This document shows, one piece after another, positions 501 to 19,766 of a stretch of 64,000 nucleotides of DNA. Source of the DNA: Haloarcula pelagica (lineage in GTDB: Archaea > Halobacteriota > Halobacteria > Halobacteriales > Haloarculaceae); NCBI RefSeq assembly GCF_030127105.1, contig NZ_CP126161.1, forward strand, positions 2,976,001-3,040,000, in the 5' to 3' direction. Position 1 is the stretch's first letter, and every line of letters starts with the position of its first letter. The position numbers and the translations under genes are program-made. The notes under the pieces are model-generated. The model saw nothing but the letters and a program-made list of their open reading frames with translations. It was not told the origin of the DNA and searched no databases.

Positions 501-1099
501 GGCTCTCCCCCTCCGGGGTCGTCGATGGTGTGGACGCCGTGGCTGTGTCGGTGATCGTGGTCCTCGTGTCCGTGGTCGTGGTCCGCGTGGTCGTGGGCAC
601 CCCCGTGTTCGTGATCCGCCGGCGAACCGGCGTCGTCGAACAGCGTCGGCGGAACGGCCTCGTAGCGGTGGTCGACAGCCGCCGGGAGTTCGCTCTCGAC
701 GACGGCGTCCATCCGCTCGCGACTGTCCGGGACCGGGAAGAGCGCCTCGCCGTCCCGGAGAGCCAGATCCCAGTGGCGGTTACCCAGCGCGTGACCCAGT
801 TCCAGGGCGGCCGTCGGCGTGAGCCCGCTCCCGTCGAGGTCGAGCACCAGCGCGTCGATCCGGGCCAGTTCCACGACGACGAGGGTCCCGTCGTCGGCTT
901 CGAGCACGTCGCCGTCGCCCAGGTCTTGTGGGACGACGACCCCCAGGTCGCGGCCGTCGTCGGTCTCGGTCCGGACCCGCGAGCGCCGTCGGTCGGTGTC
1001 CGAGAGGACGACGGTCACGGGGTCGGTAGCCGGCGCTGTCAGCCGTTTCTCGACGGCCGGGTCCGCTCGGTGGCCGACGTAGCTGTCGGCGAGACGCAT
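497..1099 (-). CDS. ureE: Urease accessory metallochaperone UreE
   Basis: UreE carries nickel to the UreDFG-apourease complex in the cytoplasm. The protein has 200 residues. The N-terminal half is the peptide-binding-like domain. The central segment GHALGNRHWDLALRDG holds the conserved histidine of the dimer-interface nickel site. The last ~45 residues form a very His/Asp-rich tail with repeated HDH, HGH and HSH, as in nickel-storing UreE proteins. ATG at 1099 overlaps the ureD stop by 1 bp (TGATG). The tail suggests strong nickel buffering, which fits the adjacent nickel importer. Confidence 0.95.
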   Translation of the reverse strand: MRLADSYVGHRADPAVEKRLTAPATDPVTVVLSDTDRRRSRVRTETDDGRDLGVVVPQDLGDGDVLEADDGTLVVVELARIDALVLDLDGSGLTPTAALELGHALGNRHWDLALRDGEALFPVPDSRERMDAVVESELPAAVDHRYEAVPPTLFDDAGSPADHEHGGAHDHADHDHGHEDHDHRHSHGVHTIDDPGGGEP

Positions 1100-2022
1100 C
1101 AGTACTTCCTCCCGATGGGGGCCGGCGCGCCGAGCAGTTCCCGACGCGCGTGGTCCCAGGCCGCTCGGAGCGTCGCCGTCACCGTCTCCGCGCGGTGGCC
1201 CAGCGCACGCACCGACACGCCGGCGTCGTTCGGGAGCGCGCTCGCGCCGGCCCGGGCATCGCAGTCCGTGACGACCTCGTGGACGGCGTCGCTCAGCCCG
1301 TCGGTGTCACGGTCGGGTGCGACGACGAAGGCGGTCCCGTAGACGGCGAACTCCCCGAGCAGCCCGGGCGCCGTCGGATCGTCCTCCTCGGGCGCCAGAT
1401 GCGTGGTGTCGGCAAACAGCAGACCGTCGGGGCCGTGTGCCTCGACGGTCGAGCGGTACCGCTCGAAGGCGAACCGCTCGCCACGGGCGAGTCGGCCCGG
1501 CACCACCACGTCGCTGAGAACGGCCGTCGCGTCCGCTGCGAGGTCCAGACGGAGGTCCTGGCAGTACCGCGCGTTCTCGTGGAGGATGGTCGGCTCCGGG
1601 ACGTAATCCAGGTGGCCGCCAGCCTCGACGGAGAGGTCCGTGTCGGCGGCCGCGTAGTTACACTCCATGGACTGGACTTTCGTCGAACTCTGCGTGGAGA
1701 CGTTGGCGACGGCGTCCTCGCGGACGGTCACCGTGATGTCGTGGCGGTCGCCCTGTGCGACCCCGCCGGTCGGCGACTGGACGAACACCGTCTCGGCGTC
1801 TGGGTGGGGGTCGTGTCCCAGCGTCCCGGAGATGTGGAACGGGACCGTCGCGTAGTCTTCGACCAGTGCGGTCCCGCCCGCTGTGTCGGCGAAGGTCAGT
1901 TCGAGGACGCCGTCCTTTCCCGGCGCGCCGACGGCGGCCTGGGGAACCGGTTCGGCGGCGTACTCGGCGAACGAGGGGTGGGGAGCGTCGGTCTCCTGGG
2001 TCGTCTCACCGTCGGCGGCCAT
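1099..2022 (-). CDS. ureD: Urease accessory protein UreD (UreH)
   Basis: UreD is the scaffold that binds urease and passes nickel from UreG/UreE to the active site. The 307-residue protein shows the family pattern: a LELTFADTAGGTAL segment, FVQSPTGGVAQGDRH (related to the conserved NPxGGxxxGD), and QSSTKVQSM near residue 115, followed by DYVPEPTILHENARY, the hallmark (Y)xPxPxIxxxxA region. An N-terminal Ala/Glu-rich extension of about 35 residues precedes the core, as often in haloarchaea. It overlaps the stop of ureG by 1 bp (TGATG) and sits in the operon between ureG and ureE. Confidence 0.95.
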   Translation of the reverse strand: MAADGETTQETDAPHPSFAEYAAEPVPQAAVGAPGKDGVLELTFADTAGGTALVEDYATVPFHISGTLGHDPHPDAETVFVQSPTGGVAQGDRHDITVTVREDAVANVSTQSSTKVQSMECNYAAADTDLSVEAGGHLDYVPEPTILHENARYCQDLRLDLAADATAVLSDVVVPGRLARGERFAFERYRSTVEAHGPDGLLFADTTHLAPEEDDPTAPGLLGEFAVYGTAFVVAPDRDTDGLSDAVHEVVTDCDARAGASALPNDAGVSVRALGHRAETVTATLRAAWDHARRELLGAPAPIGRKY

Positions 2023-2645
2023 CAGGCGAACAGCACCCCTTCGTCGATGTGGGCCATCACCTCGTCGACGCCCTCGCCGGCCTTACAGTTCGTGAACACT
2101 GTCGGCCCCTCCCTGACCTCGTGGGCGTCCCGTTCGAGCACGTCCACGTCGACGCCGACGTGGGGTGCGAGGTCGGTCTTGTTGATCACGAGCAGGTCAC
2201 AGTCGACGACGCCGGGGCCGCGCTTGCGGGGGATGTCCTCGCCCTCGGCCACGGAGATGACGTACAGCGAGAAGTCCGCGAGTTCGGGGTTGAACGTCGC
2301 CGCGAGGTTGTCGCCGCCGCTCTCGACGACCACGATGTCCAACTCGGGGTGGTCGGCGAGGAAGGCGTCGATTTGCTGGAGGTTCATCGACGGGTCCTCG
2401 CGGATGCCCGTGTGCGGGCAGGCGCCGGTCTCGACGCCGGCGACGAGGTCTTCCGGGACCACGTCGGCGAACCGCTCGCGCAGTCGGTCGGCGTCCTCCT
2501 GCGTGAGGATGTCGTTGGCGATGACGCCGACATCCAGGCCCGCCTCGCGGAGCATCGGGACCAGTTCCGACAGCAGCGCGGTCTTGCCCGACCCGACGGG
2601 GCCGCCGACGCCGACGGTCGCCACGTCGCGGTGTGTCTTGCTCAT
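2022..2645 (-). CDS. ureG: Urease accessory GTPase UreG
   Basis: UreG is the SIMIBI-class GTPase that powers nickel delivery to urease. The 207-residue protein starts at ATG (2645-2643), giving [20 protein letters not shown]. Visible motifs are the P-loop GGPVGSGKT (about residues 14-22), the nickel-binding CPH in [15 protein letters not shown], the [11 protein letters not shown] switch region, and NKTDL for guanine specificity. The reading frame stays open far upstream through ureA and ureC, but that extension is low-complexity Arg/Pro/Thr sequence typical of a shadow frame, so the internal ATG overlapping the ureA stop (ATGA) is preferred. Confidence 0.96.
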
Positions 2646-2995
2646 GTGTCCTCGCTCTCGTCGCCGTCCTGGTCCGCGGTCCCGACGCTGTCCGACCGGA
2701 TGGGGTCGTGGACGGTCACGAGCTTGGTTCCGTCGGGGAAGACGGGTTCGACCTGGATCATCGGGATCATCTCGGGGACGCCGTCCATCACGTCCTCGCG
2801 ACCCAGTAGCTGGGACGCACCGGCGCGGATCTCCGCGACGGACTGCCCGTCGCGACCCCGTTCGATACACCAGTCGCTGATGTAGGCGACGGCCTCGGGG
2901 TGGTTCAGCGGGACGCCCCGTTCCTTGCGGCGTCGCGCGACCTCTGCGGCGGTGAAGACGGTGAGTCGTTCTTGCTCTTTGGCTGTGAGTTTCAT
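2642..2995 (-). CDS. ureA: Urease gamma subunit
   Basis: This is the smallest structural subunit of the nickel enzyme urease (urea + H2O to NH3 + carbamate). The 117-residue protein begins [20 protein letters not shown] and carries the family segments [20 protein letters not shown] and [23 protein letters not shown] haloarchaeal acidic tail of about 18 residues follows. Overlaps of 4 bp with ureC (upstream) and 4 bp with ureG (downstream) place it inside one polycistron. The gene order B-C-A differs from the bacterial A-B-C order and is the order known from haloarchaea. Confidence 0.96.
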
Positions 2996-4698
2996 AGCAG
3001 GTACCGCTGTGCGAGTGGCAGTTCGGAGGACGGTTCACAGGTGACGTTCTCGCCGTCGACCTCGACCTCGAATGTCTCGGGGTCGACCTCGATGTCGTCC
3101 GGACAGTAGTCGTTGTACACCATGTCGCCTTTCCCGGGCGTGCGAGCGCCCTCGATGGGGACGACCTCCGAGTCCAGGCCGTACTCCTCGCCGACGCCGC
3201 GTTCGGCAGCGGCCGGCGAGACGAAGGACAGCGAGAGGGCGTGTTTGGCCTTGCCGACGGCGCCGGCCCGTTCGCGCTGGAGGATCGGCTCACAGGTCAT
3301 CAAGGAGCCGTTGGCCTCGCCCATCTCGGAGTGGACCGGGAAGCCGCCCTTGAACGTCATCGCCGGCTTCACCCCGAAGAAGGCGGGGTCCCACAGGCAG
3401 ATGTCGGCGATCTTCCCGGGTTCGAGCGTCCCGACGTACTGGTCGATCCCGGCCGAGATGGCCGGGTTGATCGTGTACTTCGAGATGTAGCGTTTGATCC
3501 GGAAGTTGTCCGCCCCGGTGCCCTCGTCCTCGGGGAGGGGACCGCGCTGGGACTTCATCTTCGAGGCGGTCTGCCAGGTCCGCGAGACGACCTCGGCCAT
3601 CCGGCCCATCGCCTGGGAGTCGGAGGTCATCATCGAGATGGCGCCCATGTCGTGGAGCACGTCCTCGGCGGCGATGGTCTCGGCCCGCACGCGGGACTCG
3701 GCGAAAGCCACGTCCTCGGGCACGTCCGGGTTGAGGTGGTGACAGACCATCACCATGTCCAGGTGCTCGTCGAACGTGTTGTCGGTGTAGGGCATCGAGG
3801 GGTTCGTCGACGAGGGGAGCATGTTGGGCTGGCCGACCATCTCCATGATGTCCGGCGCGTGGCCCCCGCCTGCGCCCTCGATGTGGAACAGGTGCATCGT
3901 CCGGCCGTCGACGGCGCTGAACGTGTTCTCGACGAAACCGGCCTCGTTGAGCGTGTCCGTGTGCATACAGACCTGCACGTCTTCCTCCTCGGCGACATCG
4001 AGCGCGGTGTCGATGGCCCGGGGCATCGACCCCCAGTCCTCGTGGAGTTTCAGCGCACAGGCGCCGGCCTCGACCTGTTCACGGAGCGGCCCGGGATCGG
4101 AGGCATTTCCCTTCCCGTAGAAGCCGACGTTGACCGGCCAGGCCTCGGCGGCCTGGAGGAACCGTTTGATGTTCTCCGGGCCGGTCGTACAGGTCGTCGC
4201 ACCGCCGCCGTAGCCCCCGCCCAGCATCGTCGTGATACCCGACGACAGCGCGTGTTCGTGCAACTGCGCGGAGTTCCAGTGGATGTGGATGTCCAGGCCG
4301 CCGGTGGTGGCGATCTTCCCCTCCGCGGGGTAGGCGTCCGTCGACGGGCCGACGACCATGTCGACGCCGTCCATCGTGTCCGGGTTGCCGGCCTTGCCGA
4401 TGCCGGCGATCTCGCCGTTCCGGATGCCGATGTCGCCCGCGACGATCCCCAGTTTCGGATCGATGATCGTCGCGTTCGTGATGACCCAGTCCAGCGCGCC
4501 CTCCTCCTGGGTGACGCCGGGAGCCTGTCCGAGGCCGTCCCGCAGGGTCTTCCCGCCGCCGAACACCGCCTCGTCGCCGTGAGTTCGGAGGTCCTCTTCG
4601 ACCTCCGCAAACAGTTCGGTGTCGCCCAGACGGACCTTGTCGCCCTCGGTCGGGCCGTACAACTCGGCGTAGTTGTCCCGCTCGATGTCGCGTGTCAT
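2992..4698 (-). CDS. ureC: Urease alpha subunit (catalytic)
   Basis: This is the catalytic subunit of urease, with 568 residues, the usual length. The amidohydrolase-fold active site is complete. It has HIHWNS (two Ni ligands), KLHEDWG (carbamylated Lys bridging both nickels plus a His), CMHTDTLNE and [12 protein letters not shown] (further ligand and catalytic His), the mobile-flap pair CH in [12 protein letters not shown], and SDSQAMGR (Asp ligand). It starts [20 protein letters not shown]. The start overlaps the ureB stop by 4 bp. All residues known to be essential are present, so an active cytoplasmic urease is expected once nickel is supplied. Confidence 0.98.
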
Positions 4699-5114
4699 TC
4701 CTGGTCCTCCACGCCGTCCCCGGCCGTGTCGTCTTCGGCGCCGGTATCACCGAACCCGGCGGCCCGCAGCCGCTCCAGCGCTTCGCCCGGGTCGGCGTCG
4801 ACGCTCCCGTCGACCATCCCGTTCATGCCGCGAGCGGCGCGTTTCCCGCCGATGGCGACGAGTTCGACGGTCTGCTCGTCGCCCGGCTCGAACCGGACGG
4901 CGGTGCCGGCGGGGATGTTCAGCCGCATCCCGAAGGCCGCCTCGCGGTCGAACGCCAGGGCCGCGTTGGCCTCGAAGAAGTGGAAGTGCGAACCCACCTG
5001 GACCGGCCGGTCGCCCGTGTTGCCCACGGTCACCTCGGCGGTCTCCCGTCCCTCGTTCAGTGTCACGGTGCCCTCGCCGGGGACGACCTCCCCGGGGACG
5101 AACTCCTCAGACAC
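4695..5114 (-). CDS. ureB: Urease beta subunit
   Basis: This is the second structural subunit of urease and the first gene of the operon. The 139-residue protein has the family segments [56 protein letters not shown] and ELVAIGGKR. The last ~35 residues are an acidic extension. The start is GTG (5114-5112); 4-13 bases upstream lies AGGTGTGATC, a partial match to the anti-Shine-Dalgarno complement GGAGGTGATC. A TATA-like ATATACG element lies about 40 bp upstream. Confidence 0.96.
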
Positions 5115-5286: not shown

Positions 5287-6080
<794 letters not shown>

Positions 6081-6084
<4 letters not shown>

Positions 6085-6878
6085 GCGAGGACCACCCCGG
6101 TGACGGTCGCCGCGACCACAGCGCCGAACGCGGCGTCGGCGAGCCCCAGCGGTGCCCGCGGCCGGGCGGGGGTCACACCGGTCCCGCCCCGTGCGCGTGC
6201 CGCTCGCTCGACGCGCTCGCCGCGTTCGAGGCTGCGAAGCAGGAAGGTCCCGAGGAAGTTCCCGGAGTCGCGCCAGCTCCGCTGGATCTCCGGGTCCGCG
6301 ACTGTCCGGCCGCGCCGCGCCCGCACCATCCGTCCCAGTTCCGCGAAGAACAACAGGAGATACCGATAGGTGATCGCCAGGAGCGTCACGGCGATCGTCG
6401 GCGCGCGAAGCCGGCGCAGCGCCGACAACAGCGCCGAGAACCGCGTCGTCAACAGCAACACGGTCAGAAAGCCCACACAGGCGGCGACCCGGACGGTGAA
6501 CGTGACGACGTACTCGACGCCCGCTGCCGACAACGGAAGCGGCGTCCACGGGAGGGACGGGCCGCCCATCAGGAGCATCTGCGGGCCGACGACGACGAAC
6601 GCGACGGCAGGGGGTCCCGTCACCCGACCCAGGAACGCCCGAGCGGGGACCCGCGAGAGGGCCGCCAGCGCGGCCGCCAGCCCCGCCAGTGCCAGGACCG
6701 TCGAAAGCTCCCGCTGGACGACGGTCGTGACGAGCAACGCCAGGACGCCCAGCAGCTTCACCGACGGCGCGACGGCCTGGAGGAACCCCCGACGGTTCGG
6801 GGCGTCCTCGGCGAGCAGGACCCATCGTGCGTGGGCGGCGACGGCGGCGAGGGTCCGGTCGAGCAGGTCAGCCCGCAT
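6081..6878 (-). CDS. cbiQ: Nickel/cobalt ECF transporter transmembrane protein CbiQ/NikQ
   Basis: This is the membrane coupling (T) subunit linking the ATPase to the CbiM substrate-capturing unit. The 265-residue protein has about five hydrophobic helices, for example VKLLGVLALLVTTVVQ and AFVVVGPQMLLMGG. Near the C-terminus are RRGRTVADPEIQRSWRD and LRSLERGERVERAARARG, which match the coupling-helix A-R-G type motif (ERAARARG) of the family. It overlaps cbiO by 4 bp and the upstream small gene by 11 bp. It is co-transcribed with cbiM/N/O. Confidence 0.9.
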
Positions 6879-7167
6879 CTGTCTCGGCCCCGAGCAGCCG
6901 GCCGATCGCCAGCGCGACCACGAGCGTCAGTCCGGTGCCGACGACGGCCGAGACGAAGGTCCCGGCGGCACCGCCCAGCCCCGGAACCGCGTAGTCCGGC
7001 AACGGCGCGGTCGCCACCGGCTCGGCGTCGTCGGTCGCGCCCGTCACCTCGGCGGCGTTCTCCAGCGGTTCGGCGTACCCGACGGCGCCGGCCGCCCAGC
7101 CGAACACCGGGGCCAACAGCGTCAGCGCGAGCAGGACCGCGAACGCTTTCGGGAGCCACTCAGGCAT
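6868..7167 (-). CDS. Small PDGLE-type nickel/cobalt transporter subunit (CbiN/NikN-like)
   Basis: This 99-residue protein has two membrane helices, one at each end (residues ~8-28 and ~68-90). Between them is an extracytoplasmic loop with PLENAAEVTGA and PLPDYAVPGLGG. Such two-helix proteins with a P-x-G-x-E/PLPDYxVPG loop accompany CbiM and are needed for metal loading in CbiMNQO/NikMNQO systems. It overlaps cbiM by 8 bp and cbiQ by 11 bp, so it is an integral member of the operon. The family call rests on layout and loop motifs rather than on strong sequence conservation. Confidence 0.82.
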   Translation of the reverse strand: MPEWLPKAFAVLLALTLLAPVFGWAAGAVGYAEPLENAAEVTGATDDAEPVATAPLPDYAVPGLGGAAGTFVSAVVGTGLTLVVALAIGRLLGAETDAG

Positions 7168-7804
7168 CCGGGGTCACCTCGGTGACGCCGGCAGGACGGA
7201 GGTCGGGCCGGGCGCGGGCGAGATAACGGTAGACGACGGCGGTGATCGCTCCTTCGACCAGCCCTAACAGGAGGTGGCCCACACCCATGATCGCCAGCGT
7301 CGTCAGGAGCTGGTACTGGAACGCCGAGGAGAGCCCGAGTTGGAGGGCGGCCGTGAGCGCACCGGCAGTGATCCCGAGCCATCCGGCCGCGAAGGCCGCC
7401 CGGAACTCCCCGTAGGGGGCGACCAGTCGATAGACGGCGTAGCCGACGTACACCTCGACGATGGCCATGTTGAAGACGTTCGCACCCAACACTACCAGTC
7501 CGCCGTCCCCGAAGACGAGGGCCTGGATAGCCACGACCGTCGCGACACAGAGCGCGCCCAGGTGCGGGCCGAGCAAGATTGCGGCGAACGCCCCGCCGAC
7601 GAAGTGGGCGCTCGTGCCGCCGGGGATCGGCCAGTTGAGCATCTGTGCGGCGAACACGCCGGCGGCGACGACACCCAGCAGCGGCGCACGCTGTTGGGAG
7701 ATGTCACCACCGACCCGCCTGGCGGCGAGACTCAGCACCCCGGCGCTGAGCACACCGAACAGCAACGCGAGCGGCAGATCGATGTAGCCGTCGGGAATGT
7801 GCAT
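7160..7804 (-). CDS. cbiM: Nickel/cobalt ECF transporter substrate-capture protein CbiM/NikM
   Basis: This is the metal-binding membrane S-component. The true start is ATG 7804, giving MHIPDGYIDLPLALLFG. In CbiM/NikM proteins the N-terminal Met-His-Ile-Pro-Asp-Gly is mature as such, and the amino group and His2 ligate the metal, so the longer upstream frame is rejected. The 214-residue protein has about six helices; GGTSAHFVGGAFAAILLGP holds the conserved His of the metal site. The start lies 27 bp from a palindrome that overlaps its TATA region, which implies direct metal-dependent repression. It is divergent to nikR. Confidence 0.95.
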   Translation of the reverse strand: MHIPDGYIDLPLALLFGVLSAGVLSLAARRVGGDISQQRAPLLGVVAAGVFAAQMLNWPIPGGTSAHFVGGAFAAILLGPHLGALCVATVVAIQALVFGDGGLVVLGANVFNMAIVEVYVGYAVYRLVAPYGEFRAAFAAGWLGITAGALTAALQLGLSSAFQYQLLTTLAIMGVGHLLLGLVEGAITAVVYRYLARARPDLRPAGVTEVTPDA

Positions 7805-7830
7805 ACTCTCCGCTTCCGTCGAGCCCGGCA

Positions 7831-7858
7831 ATAATACTTCGCCATCGCGCAGTATTAT
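7831..7858. promoter_or_regulatory. Candidate NikR operator between cbiM and nikR
   Basis: This is a perfect inverted repeat ATAATACT-N12-AGTATTAT (arms 7831-7838 and 7851-7858). It lies in the 102-bp gap between two divergent genes and covers the expected TATA position of cbiM (about -26 to -54 from its ATG). Known NikR operators are two half-sites separated by a spacer, and the adjacent gene encodes NikR, so nickel-dependent repression of the importer is the simplest reading. Binding is inferred. Confidence 0.7.
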
Positions 7859-7876
7859 CGGTACCGAGTGGGTAGC

Positions 7877-7883
7877 CATATAT
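7877..7883 (+). promoter_or_regulatory. TATA box of nikR
   Basis: CATATAT is centred 26-27 bp upstream of the nikR ATG at 7907, the spacing of haloarchaeal leaderless promoters. It lies about 20 bp from the edge of the palindrome, so nikR could be autoregulated as well. Confidence 0.5.
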
Positions 7884-7906
7884 CGGCCATCCACGTACGG
7901 GCGGAC

Positions 7907-8317
7907 ATGAGCGACGAGTTCGACCGGATCAGTCTCACGCTGCCGTCGTCGATGGTCGACCGGCTCGACGGGATCGTCGACGACTGGGAGTACCCCAGTC
8001 GGTCGGCCGCCGTCCGTGACTCGCTCCGTGACTTCTTCGGGACCTACGAGTGGGAGTCCGACGGTGACCAGCACCACCACGGGACGATCGTCGTCGTCCA
8101 CGACCACCACGCGGCCGGCATCGCGGACGAACTCCAGACGATCCAACACGAGATGGCCGACGCGATCACGTCGGTCCAGCATATCCACCTCTCACACGAC
8201 ACCTGTATGGAGACCCTCGTCGTCGAGGGCGGGGGGAGCGATATCACTGCGCTGGCCAACCGTCTCCGCTCGGTCACCGGCGTCCAGCAAGTCAAGGTCG
8301 TCGTCGTCGACGAGTAG
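7907..8317 (+). CDS. nikR: Nickel-responsive transcriptional regulator NikR
   Basis: This is a 136-residue ribbon-helix-helix repressor with a C-terminal ACT-like nickel domain. Residues 1-45 (DRISLTLPSSMVDRLDGIV, SRSAAVRDSLRDFF) form the RHH DNA-binding unit. The metal-binding segment is intact: an upstream His cluster DQHHHG, then HIHLSHDTCMETLVVEG, which supplies the H-x-H and Cys equivalents of the square-planar nickel site. ATG 7907 is chosen because the upstream residues lack homology and a TATA box sits 26 bp before it. It is divergent from the nickel importer with a shared palindrome; role: repress nickel uptake when nickel is replete. Confidence 0.94.
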   Translation: MSDEFDRISLTLPSSMVDRLDGIVDDWEYPSRSAAVRDSLRDFFGTYEWESDGDQHHHGTIVVVHDHHAAGIADELQTIQHEMADAITSVQHIHLSHDTCMETLVVEGGGSDITALANRLRSVTGVQQVKVVVVDE

Positions 8318-8711: not shown

Positions 8712-8715
8712 ATGA
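8590..8715 (+). CDS. Possible 41-residue leader peptide overlapping urtA
   Basis: An ORF MSNDVNQMMDGRAYLGGKAL continues to ...DDDGFTEVDA and ends in TGA at 8713-8715, overlapping the urtA ATG by 4 bp (ATGA) as in coupled haloarchaeal genes. Against it: third-position G+C is only about 60 percent, far below neighbouring genes; it has no obvious Shine-Dalgarno; and no family is recognised. It may be a genuine small leader ORF or chance. The function is unknown. Confidence 0.25.
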   Translation: MSNDVNQMMDGRAYLGGKALNTFSSSVYKVEDDDGFTEVDA

Positions 8716-9989
8716 GCGATCGGCTGGTCAGTCGCCGTGGGTTCCTCGGTTCCTCGGCCGTCCTGGCCGGGACTGCACTCGCCGGCTGTTCCGGTGGGTC
8801 GGCCTCCGGTGACGACACGATCAAACTCGGCGTCCTCGAAGACCGTTCGGGTAACTTCGCGCTCGTCGGGGACCCGAAACACAAGGCGTCGCTGCTGGCG
8901 ATCGAGGAGATCAACGAGAACGGCGGGATCGACGGCCAGCAGATCGAGGTGTTCGACCCGGACCCGCAGTCGGACAATCAGCGCTACCAGGAGCTCACTC
9001 GGCGGATGATCAACCAGAACAACGTCGACGCCCTGTGGGCCGGCTACTCCTCGGCCACCCGCGAGGCCATCCGCCCGATCATCGACCGTGAGGACCAGCT
9101 GTACTTCTACACCACCCAGTACGAGGGCGGTGTCTGTGACAAGAACGTCTTCGCCGTCGGACCGACCGCTCGCCAGCAACTCGGGAGCGTCCTCCCCTAC
9201 CCCGTCGAGGAGTACGGCTCGGACATCTACACCATCGCCGCCGACTACAACTTCGGCCAGCTCTCGGCGGACTGGGTGAAGGTCCTGGCGGACGAGAACA
9301 ACGCGAACGTCATCGGCGAGGAGTTCATCCCCCTGTCGAACTCCCAGTTCGGGTCGACGATCAACCGCATCCAGGAGGCCGACCCGGACTTCGTGATGTC
9401 GATGCTGGTCGGCGCGAACCACACCTCCTTCTACGAGCAGAAGGCCTCGGCCGGGCTGGAGGTGCCGATCGGCACCTCGACGGCGATGGCCCAGGGGTAC
9501 GAACACCGCCGACTGGACCCGCCCGCGATGGCCAACATCTACGCCGGCGTCAACTACATGGAGGAGATCCCGACCCAGCGCAACACCGAGGAGGGCGGCT
9601 TCGTCGACCGCTACTACGAGAAGTTCCCCGACGCCCCCTACCTCAACGAGGAGGCCGAGAACAACTACTTCTCGATCTACATGTACAAGCAGGCCGTCGA
9701 ACAGGCCGGCACGACCGAGCAGGAGGAAGTCAAGGCCGCCTTGGAGTCGGGCATCACGTTCGGCGCGCCCGAAGCACCCGGCGACGAGGAGATCGCCCTC
9801 GACGGCGCGACCCACCACGTCGACCACCACATGTGGGTCATGCGGGCCGACGAGGAGCACAACGTCGAGGCCGTCGACGACCGCGTCATCCCCGAGACGT
9901 TCCTCTCGGAGACGGTCGGCTGTGATCTCACGCAGGAAGACGAGGAGACCCAGTACACCCCCCAGGACTTCTACGAGGAGGCCGGGTAG
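8712..9989 (+). CDS. urtA: Urea ABC transporter substrate-binding lipoprotein UrtA
   Basis: This 425-residue protein binds the solute outside the membrane and presents it to UrtBC. The N-terminus VSRRGFLGSSAVLAGTALAGC is a Tat signal with a lipobox (AGC), so it is a lipid-anchored extracellular protein. The mature part is the periplasmic-binding type I fold of the amide/urea (AmiC/UrtA) group: IKLGVLEDRSGNFALVGDPK, then YSSATREAIRPII, YFYTTQYEGGVCDKNVFAVG and ADYNFGQLSADWV. The urea assignment rests on the five-gene Urt order and the adjacent urease; short-chain amides remain possible. Shine-Dalgarno GGAGGTG precedes it. Confidence 0.92.
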   Translation: MSDRLVSRRGFLGSSAVLAGTALAGCSGGSASGDDTIKLGVLEDRSGNFALVGDPKHKASLLAIEEINENGGIDGQQIEVFDPDPQSDNQRYQELTRRMINQNNVDALWAGYSSATREAIRPIIDREDQLYFYTTQYEGGVCDKNVFAVGPTARQQLGSVLPYPVEEYGSDIYTIAADYNFGQLSADWVKVLADENNANVIGEEFIPLSNSQFGSTINRIQEADPDFVMSMLVGANHTSFYEQKASAGLEVPIGTSTAMAQGYEHRRLDPPAMANIYAGVNYMEEIPTQRNTEEGGFVDRYYEKFPDAPYLNEEAENNYFSIYMYKQAVEQAGTTEQEEVKAALESGITFGAPEAPGDEEIALDGATHHVDHHMWVMRADEEHNVEAVDDRVIPETFLSETVGCDLTQEDEETQYTPQDFYEEAG

Positions 9990-9991
9990 GG

Positions 9992-10930
9992 ATGGTCAAC
10001 GGCCTGAACCTCCTGTTCCAGTTCCTCGATAGCTTCGCCTTTATCGTGCTGGCAGCCGCGGGGTTGGCCATCATCTTCGGGATCATGGGCGTCATCAACC
10101 TCGCACACGGCGAGTTCATCATGGTCGGGGCCTACGCGACGACCCTGGCGAACATCCGGTTGGGACTCCCGCTGCCGGCGGCGATGCTCGTCGGCGTCCT
10201 CGTCTCGGCGGTGTTCGGGCTGCTCGTCGAGCGGGTCGTCATCTCCGGCTGGCTCCCGAACCTCGTCAGCCAGCGCGCCGTCGGACGCGACGTGATCGAA
10301 CCGCTGTACGACCGCCTCGCCGACTCGATGGTCGCGACCTGGGGCCTCTCGCTGATCATGGTCCAGGGCGTGCGCCTGACGCTTGGCAACTCGCTGGATC
10401 AGATCGGGACGCCGCTGGGCAACATCGCCTACAGCGGCTTCTCGTACTCCACCTATCGAGTCTTGCTGGCCGGCGTCGCGCTGGCGGTCCTGGGGATCAC
10501 CTACTACGTGTTCACCCGGACCGAGTACGGGATGCGCGCCCGGGCGACCATCCAGGACGAGGACACGGCCCGAGCGATGGGTGTCGACACGGAGCGGACT
10601 TACATGACGACGTTCGCCTTCGGGTCGGCGCTTGCGGGCCTGACCGGCGCGCTGTACGCGCCGACGATCACGATGGTGCCCGGCCTGGGGAGTTCGTTCC
10701 TCGTCGAGGCCTTCGTCGCCGTCGTCGTCGGCGGCCCCAGCGTCGTGCTGGGGACGACCCTCGCGGGCGGCCTGCTGGGGTCGATCAACGCCGTGTTCTC
10801 GAACCTCGTCGGGACGTTCTTCGGGCGCATCATGCTGCTGTTGACCGCCATCGTGATGATCCGGTTCCTCCCGGAGGGGATCACGGGCTTCGTCGAGCGC
10901 CTCCGCGAACGGCGCCAGGAGGGCGCGTAG
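9992..10930 (+). CDS. urtB: Urea ABC transporter permease UrtB
   Basis: This is a LivH-type membrane permease of 312 residues with about eight to nine helices. Typical segments are AAGLAIIFGIMGVINLAHGE, TWGLSLIMVQGVRLTLGNSL, the cytoplasmic loop TRTEYGMRARATIQDEDTARAMGVDTERTY, which contacts the ATPases, and VVVGGPSVVLGTTLAGGLLG. It starts 2 bp after urtA and abuts urtC with no gap. It is half of the transmembrane channel. Substrate is inferred from operon context. Confidence 0.93.
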   Translation: MVNGLNLLFQFLDSFAFIVLAAAGLAIIFGIMGVINLAHGEFIMVGAYATTLANIRLGLPLPAAMLVGVLVSAVFGLLVERVVISGWLPNLVSQRAVGRDVIEPLYDRLADSMVATWGLSLIMVQGVRLTLGNSLDQIGTPLGNIAYSGFSYSTYRVLLAGVALAVLGITYYVFTRTEYGMRARATIQDEDTARAMGVDTERTYMTTFAFGSALAGLTGALYAPTITMVPGLGSSFLVEAFVAVVVGGPSVVLGTTLAGGLLGSINAVFSNLVGTFFGRIMLLLTAIVMIRFLPEGITGFVERLRERRQEGA

Positions 10931-12049
10931 ATGGCGACCGGCCACTCCGGCGGCGCTGACGCCAACGCCGAGGGCCTGCTCGATCGCCTCGTCGGGCGCT
11001 TCGAGGGACCGAACACCGTCGGGAACTCCCGGCGGTTCTGGGCCGGGTTCGCCGTCGCCGTCCTGGCGCTCGCGGCGTACCCGCTCGCGGTCGGCTCCTA
11101 CCAGGCATCGCGGTTCTCGCTGTTCCTGGTGTACGCCTTCCTCGGGCTCTCGCTGTCGGTCGTCTGGGGCTACGCCGGCATCCTCTCGTTCGGCCAGGTC
11201 GTCTTCTTCGGCTTCGCCGGCTACACCTTCGGGGTCGTCTCGGTCAACTTCGCGACGCCCGCGGGGATCACGGCGGCGTTCGTCGTCGCCGTCATCGGCG
11301 GTGCCCTCGTCGCGGCGACGCTGGGCTACTTCATGTTCTACGGTGGGGTCAGGAACGTCTACGTCACCATCATCACGCTGGTGTCGACGCTCGTGCTCCA
11401 CACGTTCATGGCCCAGACCGCCGGCGACGCCTGGACCATCGGCGAGGCCGCGCTTGGCGGGTTCAACGGGATGCCGACCATCCCGAACCTCGCGCTCGGT
11501 GTCGGCGGCGCGGCGATCACCTTCGACAGCATGACGTTTTACTACTTCGTGCTGGCGCTGCTGCTCGCGACGTATCTGGGGCTGCGGGCGCTGGTCAACT
11601 CCGATTACGGCCGCGTGATGGTCGCGGTGCGAGAGGACGAGGACCGGACCAGGATGTTCGGCTACGATGTCAAGCGCGTGAAACTCGCCGTGTTCACCCT
11701 CGGCGGGGCGCTTGCGGGGCTCTCGGGCGTGCTGTACGCCGCCTGGGGCAACTACATGAGTCCCGGGGTCTTCGAGCTGACCTTCGCCTCGCTGCCGGTC
11801 ATCTGGGTGAGCGTCGGCGGCCGGAAGACGCTGCTGGGCGCGGTCGTCGCCACCGTCGGCATCGAGTTCTTCCGGAACTCGCTGGGTGGCGAACTCGCGT
11901 TCGTCATCGTCGGCGCGCTGCTGTTGCTCTCCATCCTCGCGCTGCCGGGCGGGATCGTCCCGTACATCCACGAGAGCTACACGCAACGACGCGGTTCGAC
12001 GGCGACCTCGGAGCCGACCGAGGCGTCGACGGAGGTAGTCGATCCATGA
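10931..12049 (+). CDS. urtC: Urea ABC transporter permease UrtC
   Basis: This is a LivM-type permease of 372 residues, partner of UrtB. An N-terminal soluble stretch of ~30 residues is followed by about ten helices. SLSVVWGYAGILSFGQVVFFG is the family hallmark, MVAVREDEDRTRMFGYDVKRVKLAVF is the EAA-like coupling loop, and IWVSVGGRKTLLGAVVATVG is near the end. The last ~25 residues are a polar Thr/Glu-rich tail. It overlaps urtD by 4 bp (ATGA). Confidence 0.93.
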   Translation: MATGHSGGADANAEGLLDRLVGRFEGPNTVGNSRRFWAGFAVAVLALAAYPLAVGSYQASRFSLFLVYAFLGLSLSVVWGYAGILSFGQVVFFGFAGYTFGVVSVNFATPAGITAAFVVAVIGGALVAATLGYFMFYGGVRNVYVTIITLVSTLVLHTFMAQTAGDAWTIGEAALGGFNGMPTIPNLALGVGGAAITFDSMTFYYFVLALLLATYLGLRALVNSDYGRVMVAVREDEDRTRMFGYDVKRVKLAVFTLGGALAGLSGVLYAAWGNYMSPGVFELTFASLPVIWVSVGGRKTLLGAVVATVGIEFFRNSLGGELAFVIVGALLLLSILALPGGIVPYIHESYTQRRGSTATSEPTEASTEVVDP

Positions 12050-12840
12050 GTACGAACGACGCGGCGGGCAACCCGAACGTCCGCCAGACGGCTGCGGAAC
12101 TCGCAACGGGCGACCGAACGGACACGCTGTTGGCGACCGACGGCCTCGAAAAGCAGTTCGGCGGCTTCACCGCCATCGACGAGGTCGACTTCAGCGTCGA
12201 GGCCGGCGAACTCCGCTGTCTCATCGGCCCGAACGGCGCCGGCAAGTCGACGCTGCTGAAACTGATCACCGGCACGTACGCGCCGACCGATGGGGGCCTC
12301 TACTACGACGGCCACGAGATCACCGACGAGGAGCCACAGGACCGCGTGAAACGCGGGATCAGTATGAAGTTCCAGGTCCCGTCGGTGTACGGTGAACTGA
12401 CCGTCCGCGAGAACGCGCGGCTCCCGATCCAGCGGTTCGCCGACGGCGACGAGCGCCGGCGGCGCGTCGACGAGGCCATCGAGGCGGCCGGGCTGGCCGG
12501 CTCCGAGGATGTCGACGCGAGCACCCTCTCACACGGGCAACAACAGCAGCTAGAGATCGGGATGGCCGCCTCGCTTGAGCCCGATCTACTCTTGCTTGAC
12601 GAACCGGTCGCCGGCCTCGACGTGGCCGAACGCGAGGCGATCGCCGAGCGGATCACCCGACTCAACGAGGAGGAGGGGATCGCCTTCGTCGTCATCGAAC
12701 ACGACACGGACTTCGTCGCCGAGATCGCCGACGAGGTGACCGTCCTGCACAACGGCGCGGTGTTCCGCGAGGGGCCGATCGAGGAGATCGAGTCCGATCC
12801 GGCGGTCCAGCGAATCTACCTGGGGGAGAGCGACCAATGA
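12046..12840 (+). CDS. urtD: Urea ABC transporter ATPase UrtD
   Basis: This is the LivG-like ATP-binding subunit, 264 residues. Walker A GPNGAGKSTLL lies near residue 65, the Q-loop is at ISMKFQVPSVYGELTV, the signature is LSHGQQQQLEIG (an SHGQ variant typical of UrtD/LivG), Walker B is LLLLDEPVAGLD, and the switch His is in VVIEHDTDFV. The N-terminal ~25 residues are an extra acidic stretch. It overlaps both urtC and urtE by 4 bp, which indicates co-translation. Confidence 0.94.
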   Translation: MSTNDAAGNPNVRQTAAELATGDRTDTLLATDGLEKQFGGFTAIDEVDFSVEAGELRCLIGPNGAGKSTLLKLITGTYAPTDGGLYYDGHEITDEEPQDRVKRGISMKFQVPSVYGELTVRENARLPIQRFADGDERRRRVDEAIEAAGLAGSEDVDASTLSHGQQQQLEIGMAASLEPDLLLLDEPVAGLDVAEREAIAERITRLNEEEGIAFVVIEHDTDFVAEIADEVTVLHNGAVFREGPIEEIESDPAVQRIYLGESDQ

Positions 12841-13547
12841 CGGACCTGGTCCTCGAACTCGACGGCGTGACCGCCGCCTACGACTCGACGCCCATCCTCC
12901 GGGAGGTCGACCTCTCGGTCCAGTCCGGCGAGATCGTCGGCGTGATGGGGAAAAACGGGGTCGGCAAGACGACGCTTATGAAGACGGTCATCGGCCTGCT
13001 CGAACCTGTCTACGGGACGATTACCTACGACGGTACCGACGTGACGACCGACGACGCAGACGAACGAGCCCGTGCCGGTATCGGCTACATCCCGCAGGGC
13101 CGGGACGTGTTCCCGAAACTCACCGTCGAGCAGAACATCAAGATGGGCGAGACGGTCAACGCCGACAGCTCGGAGACGCTGTACGACGAGATATACGACT
13201 ACTTCCCGATCCTCGACGAGCGGGCCGGCCAGCAGGCCGGCACCCTCTCGGGGGGCCAACAGCAGATGCTCGCCATCGCGCGGGCGCTCGTCTCGAACCC
13301 CGACCTGCTCTTGCTCGACGAACCCAGCGAGGGCATCCAGCCCTCGATCGTCGACCAGATCAGCCAGGACATGCAGACGATCAACGACGAACTCGGGACG
13401 ACGATCCTCTTCGTCGAACAGAACCTCGGGGTCATCCGCGAGATGGCCGATCGCTGTTACGCGATGGAACGGGGCGAGATCGTCGACGAGGTCGGTCCCG
13501 CGACGCTCGCCGACGAGGACGCCATCGCCGAGTACCTGGCCGTCTAA
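12837..13547 (+). CDS. urtE: Urea ABC transporter ATPase UrtE
   Basis: This is the LivF-like ATPase, 236 residues. Walker A GKNGVGKTTLM is near residue 38, the Q-loop is YIPQGRDVFPKLTV, the signature is LSGGQQQMLAIA, Walker B is LLLLDEPSEGIQPSIV, and the switch His position is occupied by Gln in LFVEQNLGVI, as usual for this subfamily. YIPQGRDVFPKLTVEQN is a UrtE-like signature. It is the last gene of urtABCDE, and a 70-bp gap follows. Confidence 0.94.
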   Translation: MTDLVLELDGVTAAYDSTPILREVDLSVQSGEIVGVMGKNGVGKTTLMKTVIGLLEPVYGTITYDGTDVTTDDADERARAGIGYIPQGRDVFPKLTVEQNIKMGETVNADSSETLYDEIYDYFPILDERAGQQAGTLSGGQQQMLAIARALVSNPDLLLLDEPSEGIQPSIVDQISQDMQTINDELGTTILFVEQNLGVIREMADRCYAMERGEIVDEVGPATLADEDAIAEYLAV

Positions 13548-13617
13548 GTCCGGTCGGTTTCGCGTTTCGCTGCCCGGTCGAAACAATTCTAAGCCCGTAT
13601 CGCCTATCTCGGGTACT

Positions 13618-14070: not shown

Positions 14071-14179
14071 CCTCTCACGGGACGCTTTCGACCACGCGCT
14101 ACCGGGGTTCGTCGGACTACGAAAAAGCACTGCGAACGCACCGAAAACCGCAGTCGTCAAAGCCGACCCAGTCGAGGAG

Positions 14180-15742
14180 TCAGTCCTCCTCGCCGCCGGC
14201 GACGATGTTGGGGCTCTCCTGGCGTTCGAGACTGTGGATCGGGTAGTCGTCCTTGGTGAGGTACGCGACCACGAGGAAGGTCACGAGACTCACAGCGGCG
14301 GCGATGAACGTCGGCAGGCCGTCGAACGACGCGGTGAAGATGTCGTTCGGGATGTACAGCAGCGTGTTCTGGTAGGCGTAGGTCGTCGGCACCAGCACGA
14401 ACAGGACGAGGCGGGTCGCGGAGCCAGCGAGCATCGAACTCAGTGCTGCCGGCGTGGTCGAGATGTCAGACCAGTACAGCCCCATCACCATCGGGACGAG
14501 CGCGCCGGCGAGCATGATGTCGAACGCCAGCACGAGCAACATCCCGGTCGCGGACACACGAATCGCGAGGAACACGCCCAGCAGGGTGATCGGGACGGAC
14601 ATCAGGCGCGTGACGCTGAGCAGTTTGTCGCTCTCGGTGCCGAAAAAGCCCTCGTCGGACCCGCCGTCGGTGGCCGTCGGCGTCTCGCCTGCGCTGTCCT
14701 CGTCGACGCGGATCCCGACGACGTTCCGGGCCATGACCGCCGAGGTCCCCAGGATCGCGCCGTCGCTCGTCGAGAACGAGGCGGCGACGATGCCGGCCAG
14801 GACGAGCGCGGCGAGCCACGGCGGCACGGCGTTTTGCAACAGCGTGTACAGCACGGCCTGGCTCCCGGCCTCGACGCCGATCGACGAGAGGATCGAGTTC
14901 GCCGAGAGCGCGACGATCGAGAACGGGATACCGATGATGAGCGTGCCGGCCGACCCGATGAAGCAGGCCTTCTGTGCGGTCTCGGGGTCGTCGGCCGCGA
15001 ACACCCGTTCCATGAAGTCGATGGCGACGATGTCACCGAGCCCCAGCGCGACGATCGTCGCGAGGTTGATGTACGCCCCCTGACTCGGGTCGGTAAGCTG
15101 TCCGAGGTTCGTCGGACCCATCCCGGCGGGGATCGTGAACCCGTAGTTCGTCGCGATGTAGACGATCAGCGCCATGGAGCCGACGAATGCGATCCCGGCC
15201 TGTATCACGTCGGTGTAGGCGACCGAGAACAGGCCGCCGGCGACGGTGTAGGCCAGCACGAGCCCGGCGATGATGAACACGCCGACCTGGAAGCTCGTCC
15301 CGACGAAGATCTGGAAGAGAAAGCCCCCGGCGACCAGGTTCCCCGCCAGCAGGAACGCGTAGGCGATCGACATGATGAAACTGGCGACGATCTCGACGGT
15401 GCGGCCGTACTTCCGACGGAAGAAGTCGGGCAGCGTCGTGAGGTTCAGCCGGTTCATCGGTTTCGCGAAGAACAGGCCCGTGATGAACAGACACAGCGCC
15501 AGGCCGACGGGCAGCGCCGCGCCGGCCCAGAACCCGAAGTCGGCCGCGAGGTCGGTGTTGCCAAGCGTCGCGTTCGAGTCAAGCGACTGTGCCATCAACG
15601 TCGCCGCGGCCAGCGGGAGGATGAGTCCCCGTCCGGCGACGATGTAGTTGATGCTGTCGCCCTTGACCTTCCGGGCGACGTAGAACCCGATCCCCATCAT
15701 CGTCACGATCGTGGCGGCGAGTCCGTAGATGATGACGCTCAC
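14180..15742 (-). CDS. Sodium:solute symporter family (SSS) transporter
   Basis: This is a 520-residue membrane protein with about 13 helices. Typical SSS segments are GDSINYIVAGRGLILPLAAATLMAQ (helix 1), LNLTTLPDFFRRKYGR, YTVAGGLFSVAYTDVIQ (the characteristic GGxxSVxxTDxxQ), and AGIVAASFSTSDGAILGTSAVMARNVVG, with the Ser/Thr pair near the sodium site. It should use the sodium gradient to import a solute. The substrate is not evident; lying between urea uptake genes and a ureohydrolase, urea, a polyamine or a guanidino compound are candidates. It is divergent from the AbrB/PhoU regulator, with a 420-bp gap holding a palindrome. Confidence 0.85.
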   Translation of the reverse strand: MSVIIYGLAATIVTMMGIGFYVARKVKGDSINYIVAGRGLILPLAAATLMAQSLDSNATLGNTDLAADFGFWAGAALPVGLALCLFITGLFFAKPMNRLNLTTLPDFFRRKYGRTVEIVASFIMSIAYAFLLAGNLVAGGFLFQIFVGTSFQVGVFIIAGLVLAYTVAGGLFSVAYTDVIQAGIAFVGSMALIVYIATNYGFTIPAGMGPTNLGQLTDPSQGAYINLATIVALGLGDIVAIDFMERVFAADDPETAQKACFIGSAGTLIIGIPFSIVALSANSILSSIGVEAGSQAVLYTLLQNAVPPWLAALVLAGIVAASFSTSDGAILGTSAVMARNVVGIRVDEDSAGETPTATDGGSDEGFFGTESDKLLSVTRLMSVPITLLGVFLAIRVSATGMLLVLAFDIMLAGALVPMVMGLYWSDISTTPAALSSMLAGSATRLVLFVLVPTTYAYQNTLLYIPNDIFTASFDGLPTFIAAAVSLVTFLVVAYLTKDDYPIHSLERQESPNIVAGGEED

Positions 15743-16163: not shown

Positions 16164-17186
16164 ATGAAACGGAAAGTCCAGCAACTGGGGTCGTCGACGC
16201 TGGCCGTGACGGTCCCGGCCGAGTGGGCGCGGTATCACAGTATCGAGAAGGGCGACGAGATCATCGTCCAGCGCGACGAGAACGGCGGTTCGCTCCTGCT
16301 GGTCCCCGAGCAGCCGACCATCGAGGACACCGAGGCGACCATCGACGCAGACACGCTGACTGACGAGGCCTTAGAGCGGGCGGTCGTGACCCAGTACGTC
16401 CTGGGCCGGCAGTTGATCCGAGTCGAGTCGACGACGCCGCTGTCGATCGACCACCACGACGCGATCAGACGCGCCGAGCGGCGCCTCATGGGGCTGGGAA
16501 TCGTCGAACAGGGCGACGGGCACGTCACCGTCAGGTGTTCGGTCGCCCCGGGCGATTTCGACCTCCCGACGCTTCTGGGTCGGCTCAGCCGCACCGAGGC
16601 GATGATGCGGACGGAGGCGATGACGGCTATCGCCGACGGCGACGCCGAGCGCGCGCGGAGCAACGACGCCCGGTACGAACAGGCCGAGAAACTGTTCTAC
16701 CTGTTTCTCAGGCTCGTGTTCGCGACCTACCGGAACCCCCGTCTCAACCGGGCCGTCGGGCTCGAAACCGGGTTCCCGCTCATCGGGTACCGCTCGGTCG
16801 CACAGGACGTGATGCTGATGGCCGACATCGCCCGCGAGATCGGGACGCTGGTCGCCGACGGCGAGGGCACGGCGACCGATCCGACGACCGCCGAACAGCT
16901 GCGTGAACTGGGCAGCGCGCTCGACGACGCCACCTCGACGACGATCGCTGCCGTCACCTCCGCCGACTACGACGCCACGGCGGAGGCCCGCGAGCGGTTC
17001 GACACCGTCGACGAGCGCATCGACGCGCTGAACGACCACCTGATGGCCGAGCGGCCCGAACCGTTGTTAGCGCTCCAGCGGGCCGTCGTCCTCCTCGAAC
17101 GGAGCGCCAGGCACGCGCGGGACAGCCTCGCGGTCGCGACCCACCTGGCGTTCCGTGCGGACCCCGACCTGGTCACCAGCCAGTAG
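16164..17186 (+). CDS. PhoU-domain protein with N-terminal SpoVT/AbrB DNA-binding domain
   Basis: This is a 340-residue protein. Residues 1-50 (MKRKVQQLGSSTLAVTVPAE, YHSIEKGDEIIV) form a swapped-hairpin AbrB DNA-binding domain. The remainder is two PhoU-like three-helix repeats (around 120-210 and 230-335), with the E-x-x-x-D type metal-binding character of PhoU. Archaeal members are annotated as phosphate uptake regulators, but no pst genes are near; here it sits between a symporter and a ureohydrolase and may regulate them. ATG 16164 is used; an in-frame GTG 21 bp upstream (16143) is the alternative. Confidence 0.8.
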   Translation: MKRKVQQLGSSTLAVTVPAEWARYHSIEKGDEIIVQRDENGGSLLLVPEQPTIEDTEATIDADTLTDEALERAVVTQYVLGRQLIRVESTTPLSIDHHDAIRRAERRLMGLGIVEQGDGHVTVRCSVAPGDFDLPTLLGRLSRTEAMMRTEAMTAIADGDAERARSNDARYEQAEKLFYLFLRLVFATYRNPRLNRAVGLETGFPLIGYRSVAQDVMLMADIAREIGTLVADGEGTATDPTTAEQLRELGSALDDATSTTIAAVTSADYDATAEARERFDTVDERIDALNDHLMAERPEPLLALQRAVVLLERSARHARDSLAVATHLAFRADPDLVTSQ

Positions 17187-17415
17187 GGGGGCCGTGCTCC
17201 CGTCCGTTCTCTCTCGGTGCCGACAGCCCTCTCGTCCGTGCCGGTCGTCTCCTTTCACACCTTAAGGATACCCGAACGGTACATGCCTGCACCAGTTCAT
17301 CGGGGCGGGTATTACACATTCGAAGGAACGCTTTTCAGTAGTGTCTGTCCATCCATTACTGTCGATAAAATCGGGCGATCCCGCTCGAAATGCAGTCAAA
17401 AACACTACGATCACC
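17187..17415 (+). promoter_or_regulatory. Intergenic promoter region of the ureohydrolase gene
   Basis: This 229-bp gap holds AT-rich stretches (TATTACACATTCG near 17310 and CGATAAAATC near 17362) that could serve as TATA elements for the ureohydrolase. No inverted repeat resembling the NikR or GTAGAC palindromes was found. Confidence 0.3.
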
Positions 17416-18525
17416 ATGTCAGACGAACGCTCCGGCGAAGACATCTACGGCGAGAAGCACAAGCACGCGAACGAACCCATCTTCAGCGGCGTCCCGACCT
17501 TCCTCAAGCTCCCCGAGGTCGAGCGGGACGAACTCGACGACGAGGATGTCGACATCGGCATCCTCGGCGCGCCACTGGACACCGCGACCACCATCCGGCC
17601 TGGGACCCGCTACGGACCCCGCGCCGTCCGTGCGGCCTCGACGGTCCCGTCGCCGCCGTACGAGCACTTCAACATCGAGACGGGGATCGACCCGTTCGAC
17701 AACTTCAGCGTCGCCGACACTGGTGACGCACAGGTCTCGCCCGGTGACACGCGCCAGAGCCAGCTCAACATCGAGGACGCCGTCTACGAGATCAGCGAGC
17801 AGGCTACCCCCATCGTCATCGGCGGCGACCACTCCATCTCGTACCCGGACATCAAAGGCTGGGCGGAGGCCAACGGCTACGAGGACATCGGGCTGATCCA
17901 CTTCGACTGCCACGCCGACACCGGCGAGGACGGGCTGACCGGCTTCGAGTACGACCACGGTGCCTGGGTCAAGCGCGTCTACGACGAGGGGATCATGGAC
18001 GGCGAGAACTACACGCTGATCGGCCCGCGTGGCTTCTGGCCCGGCCCCGACACCTACGAGGACATGCGCGAGGCCGACATGAAGTGGTACACCGCCATGG
18101 AAGTCGGAAACATGGACCTCGATGCGATCGTCCAGGATGCCGTCGAACGCGCGACCGACGGGACCGACGCGGTCTGGGTCTCCTTCGACGTGGACGTGAT
18201 GGAGCCGGCCTACGCGCCGGGGACCGGCGAACCCGAGCCCGGCGGACTCATCCCGCGTGAGGCCATCTACATGGTCCGGGAGGTCGTCAAGGCTCTCGAC
18301 CCCGAGGACTTCGGCTTCGACGTGGTCGAGGTCTCGCCGGCCTACGACGTGTCCGACTCCAGTTCCTACAACGGTGGCATCACCAGCGGGCTCGCAAACC
18401 GTCTCATCATCGAGGTGATGGGCAGCATGGCGCTCGCCAGCAAGGGGCTGGAGGAGGGCTCGCCGATCAAACCGAAGGAACCGCTCGGACCCACCGGCGA
18501 AGCCGAGACGCCCGCGGACGACTGA
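17416..18525 (+). CDS. Agmatinase/arginase-family ureohydrolase
   Basis: This binuclear metalloenzyme splits a guanidino substrate into urea plus an amine. The 369-residue protein has all family metal motifs: IGGDHSISYP, HFDCHADTGED (with Cys where Ala is usual in DAHxD), SFDVDVMEPAYAPGTGEPEPGG, and the catalytic Glu in VVEVSPAYD. The N-terminal part GVPTFLKLPE is shared with agmatinases and guanidinobutyrases. ATG 17416 is chosen at the point where acidic conserved sequence begins. Agmatinase is the default name; guanidinobutyrase or nickel-dependent guanidine hydrolase are open alternatives, given the nickel importer, urease and urea transporter nearby. Confidence 0.88.
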   Translation: MSDERSGEDIYGEKHKHANEPIFSGVPTFLKLPEVERDELDDEDVDIGILGAPLDTATTIRPGTRYGPRAVRAASTVPSPPYEHFNIETGIDPFDNFSVADTGDAQVSPGDTRQSQLNIEDAVYEISEQATPIVIGGDHSISYPDIKGWAEANGYEDIGLIHFDCHADTGEDGLTGFEYDHGAWVKRVYDEGIMDGENYTLIGPRGFWPGPDTYEDMREADMKWYTAMEVGNMDLDAIVQDAVERATDGTDAVWVSFDVDVMEPAYAPGTGEPEPGGLIPREAIYMVREVVKALDPEDFGFDVVEVSPAYDVSDSSSYNGGITSGLANRLIIEVMGSMALASKGLEEGSPIKPKEPLGPTGEAETPADD

Positions 18526-18742
18526 GCGACGACCGACCGCCGAGGATTTCTGTACGGGCCGAACGCGGACTGCTCTCTTGCCCCGCCGCGTCGGCCTTCG
18601 GGACGGCTTCGCCGGCCGTCCCACCTGTTTCAGCCGTCGACCGGCCCGTCATCGCCGGTCCGACTCGATACACCCGCAGTCGCTATATCGAACTGCTCGA
18701 CGGGGGCCACACTATTTCCGGATCGCACTCCCAGACCGAGAT

Positions 18743-19765: not shown

Positions 19766-19766
19766 C

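Follow-up and report, generated by a model that had tools for sequence, protein, structure and literature searches.

The 64,000-nucleotide stretch of Haloarcula pelagica DNA analysed here (the window) encodes a ureohydrolase that appears to be a non-canonical guanidinase, with glutamate in place of the specificity tryptophan. Together with a symporter and a MazE/PhoU-domain regulator it would form a haloarchaeal cassette feeding urease, a reading to which a probability of about 0.7 is assigned. The symporter (SSS family) would import guanidinium with Na+, the ureohydrolase would split guanidine at its binuclear metal site (guanidine + H2O -> urea + NH3), and urease would then cleave the resulting urea. 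The MazE/PhoU-type protein probably stands in for the guanidine riboswitch of bacteria. The substrate and direction of transport, the substrate and metal of the enzyme, the role of Glu272 and the function of the regulator are what we infer here. Guanidine is proposed as the substrate because the symporter strictly co-occurs with the enzyme, and because its bacterial relatives travel with guanidinase and lie under guanidine-I riboswitches. The relevant features of the window are as follows.

497..5114, minus strand: urease structural and accessory genes ureE, ureD, ureG, ureA, ureC and ureB (open reading frames), proposed consumer of the urea product
5287..7849, minus strand: CbiMNQO-type nickel/cobalt importer (open reading frames, by eye), most simply serving urease
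7868..8317, plus strand: NikR-type nickel regulator (open reading frame, by eye)
8712..13547, plus strand: urtABCDE urea ABC transporter (UrtA TIGR03669, UrtB TIGR03622)
14180..15742, minus strand: Na+/solute symporter of the SSS family (PF00474, 91.1 bits against a gathering score of 22.8), proposed guanidine importer
16164..17186, plus strand: protein with MazE/AbrB-type DNA-binding and PhoU domains (PF04014, PF01895), proposed cassette regulator
17309..17335, plus strand: conserved 27-base element GTATTACACATYCNAAGGAACGCTTTT, probable promoter/operator of the ureohydrolase gene
17416..18525, plus strand: ureohydrolase of 369 amino acids (PF00491 Arginase, E 4.9e-78), proposed non-canonical guanidinase

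The starts of the orthologues match the equivalent of position 17416 in the ureohydrolase gene; a longer mechanical open reading frame begins with GTG at 17341. The protein contains the motifs GGDHS, HFDCHADT, EYDHG, IGPRGFWPGPDTYEDM and SFDVD. Its notable features are Thr59, Cys165, Trp208, Glu272 and the SSYNGGITS insert, a stretch that follows the SPAYD motif and holds a seven-residue insertion in the haloarchaeal enzyme. The binuclear ligands (H139, D164, H166, D168, D258, and D260) do not vary across 44 loci of haloarchaea and 54 of cyanobacteria. The cysteine and the tryptophan of GFW/GYW are likewise invariant in the 44 haloarchaeal loci (two overlapping sets, with some species sampled twice), so the motifs do not arise by chance. 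Reading frame, Pfam match and invariance bear out the gene and motif set described in an earlier note made from the letters alone (the sequence-only reading).

In Synechocystis, guanidine specificity is reported to be set by Thr97 and Trp305, and guanidinases are called by the rule "Thr and Trp" (PMC11410670). The threonine is kept as Thr59 in 44/44 haloarchaeal loci, and the Trp305 site is occupied by Glu272 in all of them (residues were numbered by counting in PDB alignments, W305 and T97 being positions 307 and 99 of the 7esr chain). The context of this site is GTGEPEPGG in the window enzyme versus GTGWPEPGG in guanidinases; tryptophan is present in 54/54 cyanobacterial proteins and in the Rubrobacter and Nonomuraea enzymes. 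The uniform glutamate means that the published rule would class the haloarchaeal clade as "inferred not guanidinase" (PMC11410670). The sequence-only reading had relied on other cues, namely the cysteine of HFDCHADT and an unusual tryptophan-containing segment after EYDHG. A tryptophan there does not distinguish the enzyme, as this segment reads RTWNDD in agmatinase 4dz4 and GGWQ in known guanidinases; the published determinants are instead the threonine, present here, and the tryptophan, replaced by glutamate in the GTGEPEPGG site that was overlooked. A Streptomyces plasmid ureohydrolase (L136 5890-8534) with the similar stretches RGYWPDAE, HFDAHADT and GTGTPEPGG adjoins a cytosine-permease-type transporter.

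The best PDB matches of the window ureohydrolase are Synechocystis GdmH (7esr/7oi1, E 2.7e-60) and the Nitrospira inopinata guanidinase (9fek, 3.2e-49), and guanidinobutyrase, guanidinopropionase and proclavaminate amidinohydrolase rank behind both. The fold of an AlphaFold2 model points the same way, with two tied guanidinases on top (9fek Z 30.8, 7esr 30.6), followed by metformin hydrolase (29.1). Little weight is given to this ranking, which is biased by the presence of guanidinases in the alignment behind the model. Mean pLDDT is 71.5, and it falls below 50 in the substrate and active-site loops, so that Glu272 cannot be placed in the model.

In a tree of 57 proteins (IQ-TREE, LG+C20+F+G4), the haloarchaeal ureohydrolases form their own clade (100/100) on a long branch with weakly supported neighbours. 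The guanidinase clade (100/100) excludes them; they also stand apart from agmatinases and from the guanidino-acid hydrolases, of which GbuA and GpuA group with a Mesorhizobium protein (98/95) without them. A topology constrained to unite the haloarchaeal clade with the guanidinases is worse by 6.3 log units, and the AU test does not reject it (p-AU 0.37). A sister relation is thus neither demonstrated nor contradicted by the tree, and we make no claim that the enzyme belongs to the guanidinase family proper. In the phylogenetic placement that the sequence-only reading proposed as a check, the enzyme falls outside the known guanidinase clade, and with neither agmatinases nor guanidinobutyrases.

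Orthologues are encoded in 19 of 292 haloarchaeal genomes and, the window protein itself excepted, are 82-93% identical to it; the remaining full-length matches reach at most 43%, bar one intermediate locus at 58%. In a scan of GTDB genomes, whose search patterns favour haloarchaea and cyanobacteria, 25 haloarchaeal members (76-92%) are followed by cyanobacterial guanidinases at 36-38%. Two further haloarchaeal genomes carry diverged or partial copies and no symporter. In G132 (L055 9592-10482) a relative of 56-58% identity has threonine at the Glu272 site and alanine at the cysteine site, and is matched in two overlapping frames, so that it is probably broken or mis-sequenced. G195 (L056 9888-10154) contains only a 3' remnant of the ureohydrolase (72%).

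The distribution of the symporter carries most of the argument. Symporter (E <=1e-80) and enzyme occur in the identical 19/292 haloarchaeal genomes, none having just one of the two; outside the window's genus, the symporter is present in 10/10 enzyme carriers versus 0/266 other genomes (Fisher 1.7e-18). Both are present even in G037, where they lie 87 kb apart. In Natronorubrum bangense (L143, ~736449-737454), a symporter fragment (66% over 161 amino acids) lies beside an IS200/IS605 element; urease, the PhoU-type gene and the ureohydrolase are kept despite the fragmentary symporter. A Mov34/MPN (JAMM)-type gene is read by eye between urtE and the symporter at ~13650-14070, and a gene annotated Mov34/MPN/PAD-1 also adjoins the symporter of Haloarcula marismortui (L141 8252-8728).

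Close relatives of the symporter found outside haloarchaea are all bacterial (52-63% identity, the next matches at ~30%). Among plasmid records, the close matches are from Rubrobacter indicoceani (56.5%) and Nonomuraea gerenzanensis (52%), again followed by matches at ~30%. In these two records, which make up the whole actinobacterial evidence, the symporter directly adjoins a ureohydrolase that bears both the Thr and the Trp of the guanidinase signature. The same symporter is encoded at 8 of 54 cyanobacterial guanidinase loci (54-59%), and in 21 such cyanobacterial genomes searched whole it occurs solely at guanidinase loci. Among 244 evenly drawn cyanobacteria, guanidinase is present in 36 and the symporter in 7, all seven of which also have guanidinase (Fisher 6.0e-6 without the seed genome), with both genes within a few kilobases in 4/7. 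Rfam models place guanidine-I riboswitches upstream of cyanobacterial guanidinase-symporter loci and, in two genomes, directly upstream of the symporter by itself. In the first of these (L093), the guanidinase has one riboswitch in front of it, and the divergent symporter has a second of its own, 153 nt upstream; in the other (L150), a riboswitch lies 108 nt upstream of the symporter and the guanidinase is on another contig. The clearest pointer to what the symporter may carry is such a guanidine-sensing riboswitch in front of the symporter gene only. Thus, for the guanidine hydrolase activity proposed by the sequence-only reading, the co-occurring symporter and its riboswitch-linked relatives suggest that the proposal is correct, while the residues then cited lend it little.

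The strongest competing explanation, itself unlikely, is that the substrate is a small substituted guanidine (e.g., methylguanidine) or a guanidino acid, the replacement of Trp by Glu having opened or recharged the pocket. The lost tryptophan, the long separate branch and the extra SSYNGGITS loop after SPAYD are consistent with it, and in Pseudomonas an SSS-type transporter (gpuP) imports a guanidino acid. Against it, the bacterial members of the symporter family lie under guanidine-I riboswitches and adjoin canonical guanidinase, and no conserved neighbour that would process a carbon skeleton (e.g., aminotransferase or aldehyde dehydrogenase) is seen at the inspected loci.

Guanidine hydrolysis also agrees with the distribution of urease. 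Counted only at E <1e-10, urease is present in 80/292 haloarchaeal genomes, comprising 19/19 carriers of the ureohydrolase versus 61/273 non-carriers (p 3.7e-12). All 16 genomes of the window's genus have urease, which makes co-occurrence uninformative there; repeated outside it, the test gives 10/10 carriers versus 54/266 (p 2.5e-7). In several lineages urease genes adjoin the cassette (the window, G028/L050, Natronorubrum bangense, Natronococcus, Halapricum and the uncultured A07HB70), which fits a product consumed by urease; on plasmid pNG700 of Haloarcula marismortui the two are ~46 kb apart. Since some SSS proteins transport urea (DUR3) and all carriers have urease, the symporter might be taken for a urea importer, with the ureohydrolase loosely associated as a further source of urea. 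This is very improbable: the symporter is absent from 61/61 urease-positive haloarchaeal genomes without the ureohydrolase and is therefore tied to the enzyme rather than to urea use, the window already encodes urtABCDE (UrtA 663.9 bits against a cut-off of 494.8 and UrtB 464.3 against 374.25, both archaeal NCBIfam models), and a riboswitch for guanidine in front of the symporter gene only is out of keeping with a urea importer.

That the protein is simply an Mn-dependent agmatinase or arginase serving polyamine or arginine metabolism, as the public annotation "agmatinase family protein" would have it, is equally hard to credit, given scores under the curated agmatinase cut-offs (153.8 versus 174.3 bits for TIGR01230 and 212.6 versus 302 for NF002564), a patchy distribution tied to symporter and urease, and a separate archaeal-type agmatinase (L006, best PDB match 3pzl) and arginase-like protein (L003) in the same genome. 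The sub-threshold scores, the absence of grouping with agmatinases and the two guanidinases as nearest solved relatives uphold the earlier suggestion that the enzyme is probably not an agmatinase. The genome encodes six ureohydrolases, that of the window included; the other three (L002, L004, and L005) are ~36% identical to it. Two of these genes, L004 and L005 (658795-666513), are 4 kb apart, and an isochorismatase-like hydrolase gene, read by eye, precedes the first.

As to the metal, nickel or mixed Ni/Mn use by the proposed guanidinase is slightly favoured. The metal ligands do not separate Ni from Mn. The nickel chaperone HypA (PF01155) scores above its cut-off in 1/19 carriers and is missing from 18/19. 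Comammox guanidinase loci also lack HypA/HypB-type chaperones, and the comammox enzyme contained one Ni and one Mn (PMC11410670); the absence of HypA hence weakens the case for nickel but does not exclude it. UreG and UreE, both present, could help in loading the metal of the ureohydrolase. The sequence-only reading correctly placed a nickel importer, NikR, urease and urea uptake in one island, as the open reading frames and the UrtA and UrtB profile scores confirm. Its use of the adjoining nickel genes as support for a nickel ureohydrolase does not hold, because urease explains them and in most carriers the cassette is not beside them. A 20-base tandem repeat (4.2 copies, 8308-8392) extends from the end of nikR into the gap before urtA.

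The symporter and the MazE/PhoU-domain gene adjoin the enzyme gene in 17/18 sampled orthologous loci outside the window genome, and the remaining neighbourhood differs between genera. A search of positions 7500-20000 of the window (E up to 1) gave no guanidine riboswitch. The element GTATTACACATYCNAAGGAACGCTTTT occurs once in the window, where shuffled sequences give an expectation of 0 matches. A similar element (<=7 mismatches) is located 93-121 bases upstream of the enzyme gene in 21/25 named loci, 12 of them with <=3 mismatches to GTATTACACATYCNAAGGAACGCTTTT and the others with 4-7. As judged from its sequence and position, it is a probable promoter with operator of the ureohydrolase gene. 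The formamidase gene fmdA is found near the cassette in Haloarcula (L141 2890-4161; L060, L061, and L062 near 890-975; L144 6568-7812), and formamidase also adjoins the guanidinase-symporter pair of Rubrobacter indicoceani. Elsewhere in the window, an apparent tandem duplication is read by eye at 22864-30672: two TrmB-like regulator genes (22864-23922 and 26872-27930) are each divergent from a large glycoside-hydrolase-like gene (24046-26661 and 28060-30672).

A search of the open-access literature gave nothing relevant on guanidine use by haloarchaea or on a symporter with a guanidine riboswitch. Going by sequence, a haloarchaeal guanidine cassette with a rule-breaking guanidinase and an SSS-family guanidine importer is probably new. 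A broader proposal is tentative, and its chances are put at somewhat under even: a separate ureohydrolase branch may have evolved guanidine hydrolysis in haloarchaea, with Glu for Trp, a symporter shared with bacteria and a MazE/PhoU sensor rather than a riboswitch, which would make it the first guanidine-utilisation system of archaea and give guanidinases a second active-site solution. If the cassette works as proposed, archaea can scavenge guanidine, an ability probably overlooked, and the published Thr+Trp rule misses a whole guanidinase clade. The SSS-family importer could then be used as a marker to locate further systems, and where riboswitches are absent the MazE/PhoU protein would be a candidate protein sensor of guanidine.

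Among known systems, the Ni-dependent guanidinase GdmH/Sll1077 of Synechocystis (7esr, 7oi1) is ~39% identical to the window enzyme and shares its ligands, the threonine corresponding to Thr97 and the PEPGGLxPREA block; GdmH feeds urease, as is proposed here for the window enzyme. The window enzyme differs by Glu for Trp305, Cys for the Arg of HFDRHVDT, the extra SSYNGGITS loop and its separate clade, and its locus by a symporter in place of the ABC importer, no adjoining HypA/HypB-type genes and no riboswitch found. The Nitrospira inopinata system (9fek) likewise has neither local nickel chaperones nor an ABC importer, but it has Trp313 where the window enzyme has Glu, an APC permease and a riboswitch. 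Guanidinobutyrase and guanidinopropionase (3nio, 3nip) and proclavaminate amidinohydrolase (1gq6) belong to the same superfamily with the same ligands (E 1e-46 to 8e-45), whereas they lie in another region of the tree and have threonine where the window enzyme has Glu272. Metformin hydrolase (MfmAB / MefH / MetCaCb) resembles the window enzyme in fold (Z ~29) and is a nickel-using ureohydrolase; it is however a heteromeric pair of ~25% identity, adjoined by HypA/HypB genes (PMC11399263), in contrast to the single gene of the window. On the Rubrobacter indicoceani plasmid NZ_CP031116, the order is guanidine-I riboswitch, guanidinase, SSS symporter, formamidase and urease. The same transporter family (56.5%) thus stands beside a ureohydrolase and urease, as in the window, although the Rubrobacter ureohydrolase is of the canonical Thr+Trp guanidinase kind and shares 35% identity with that of the window.
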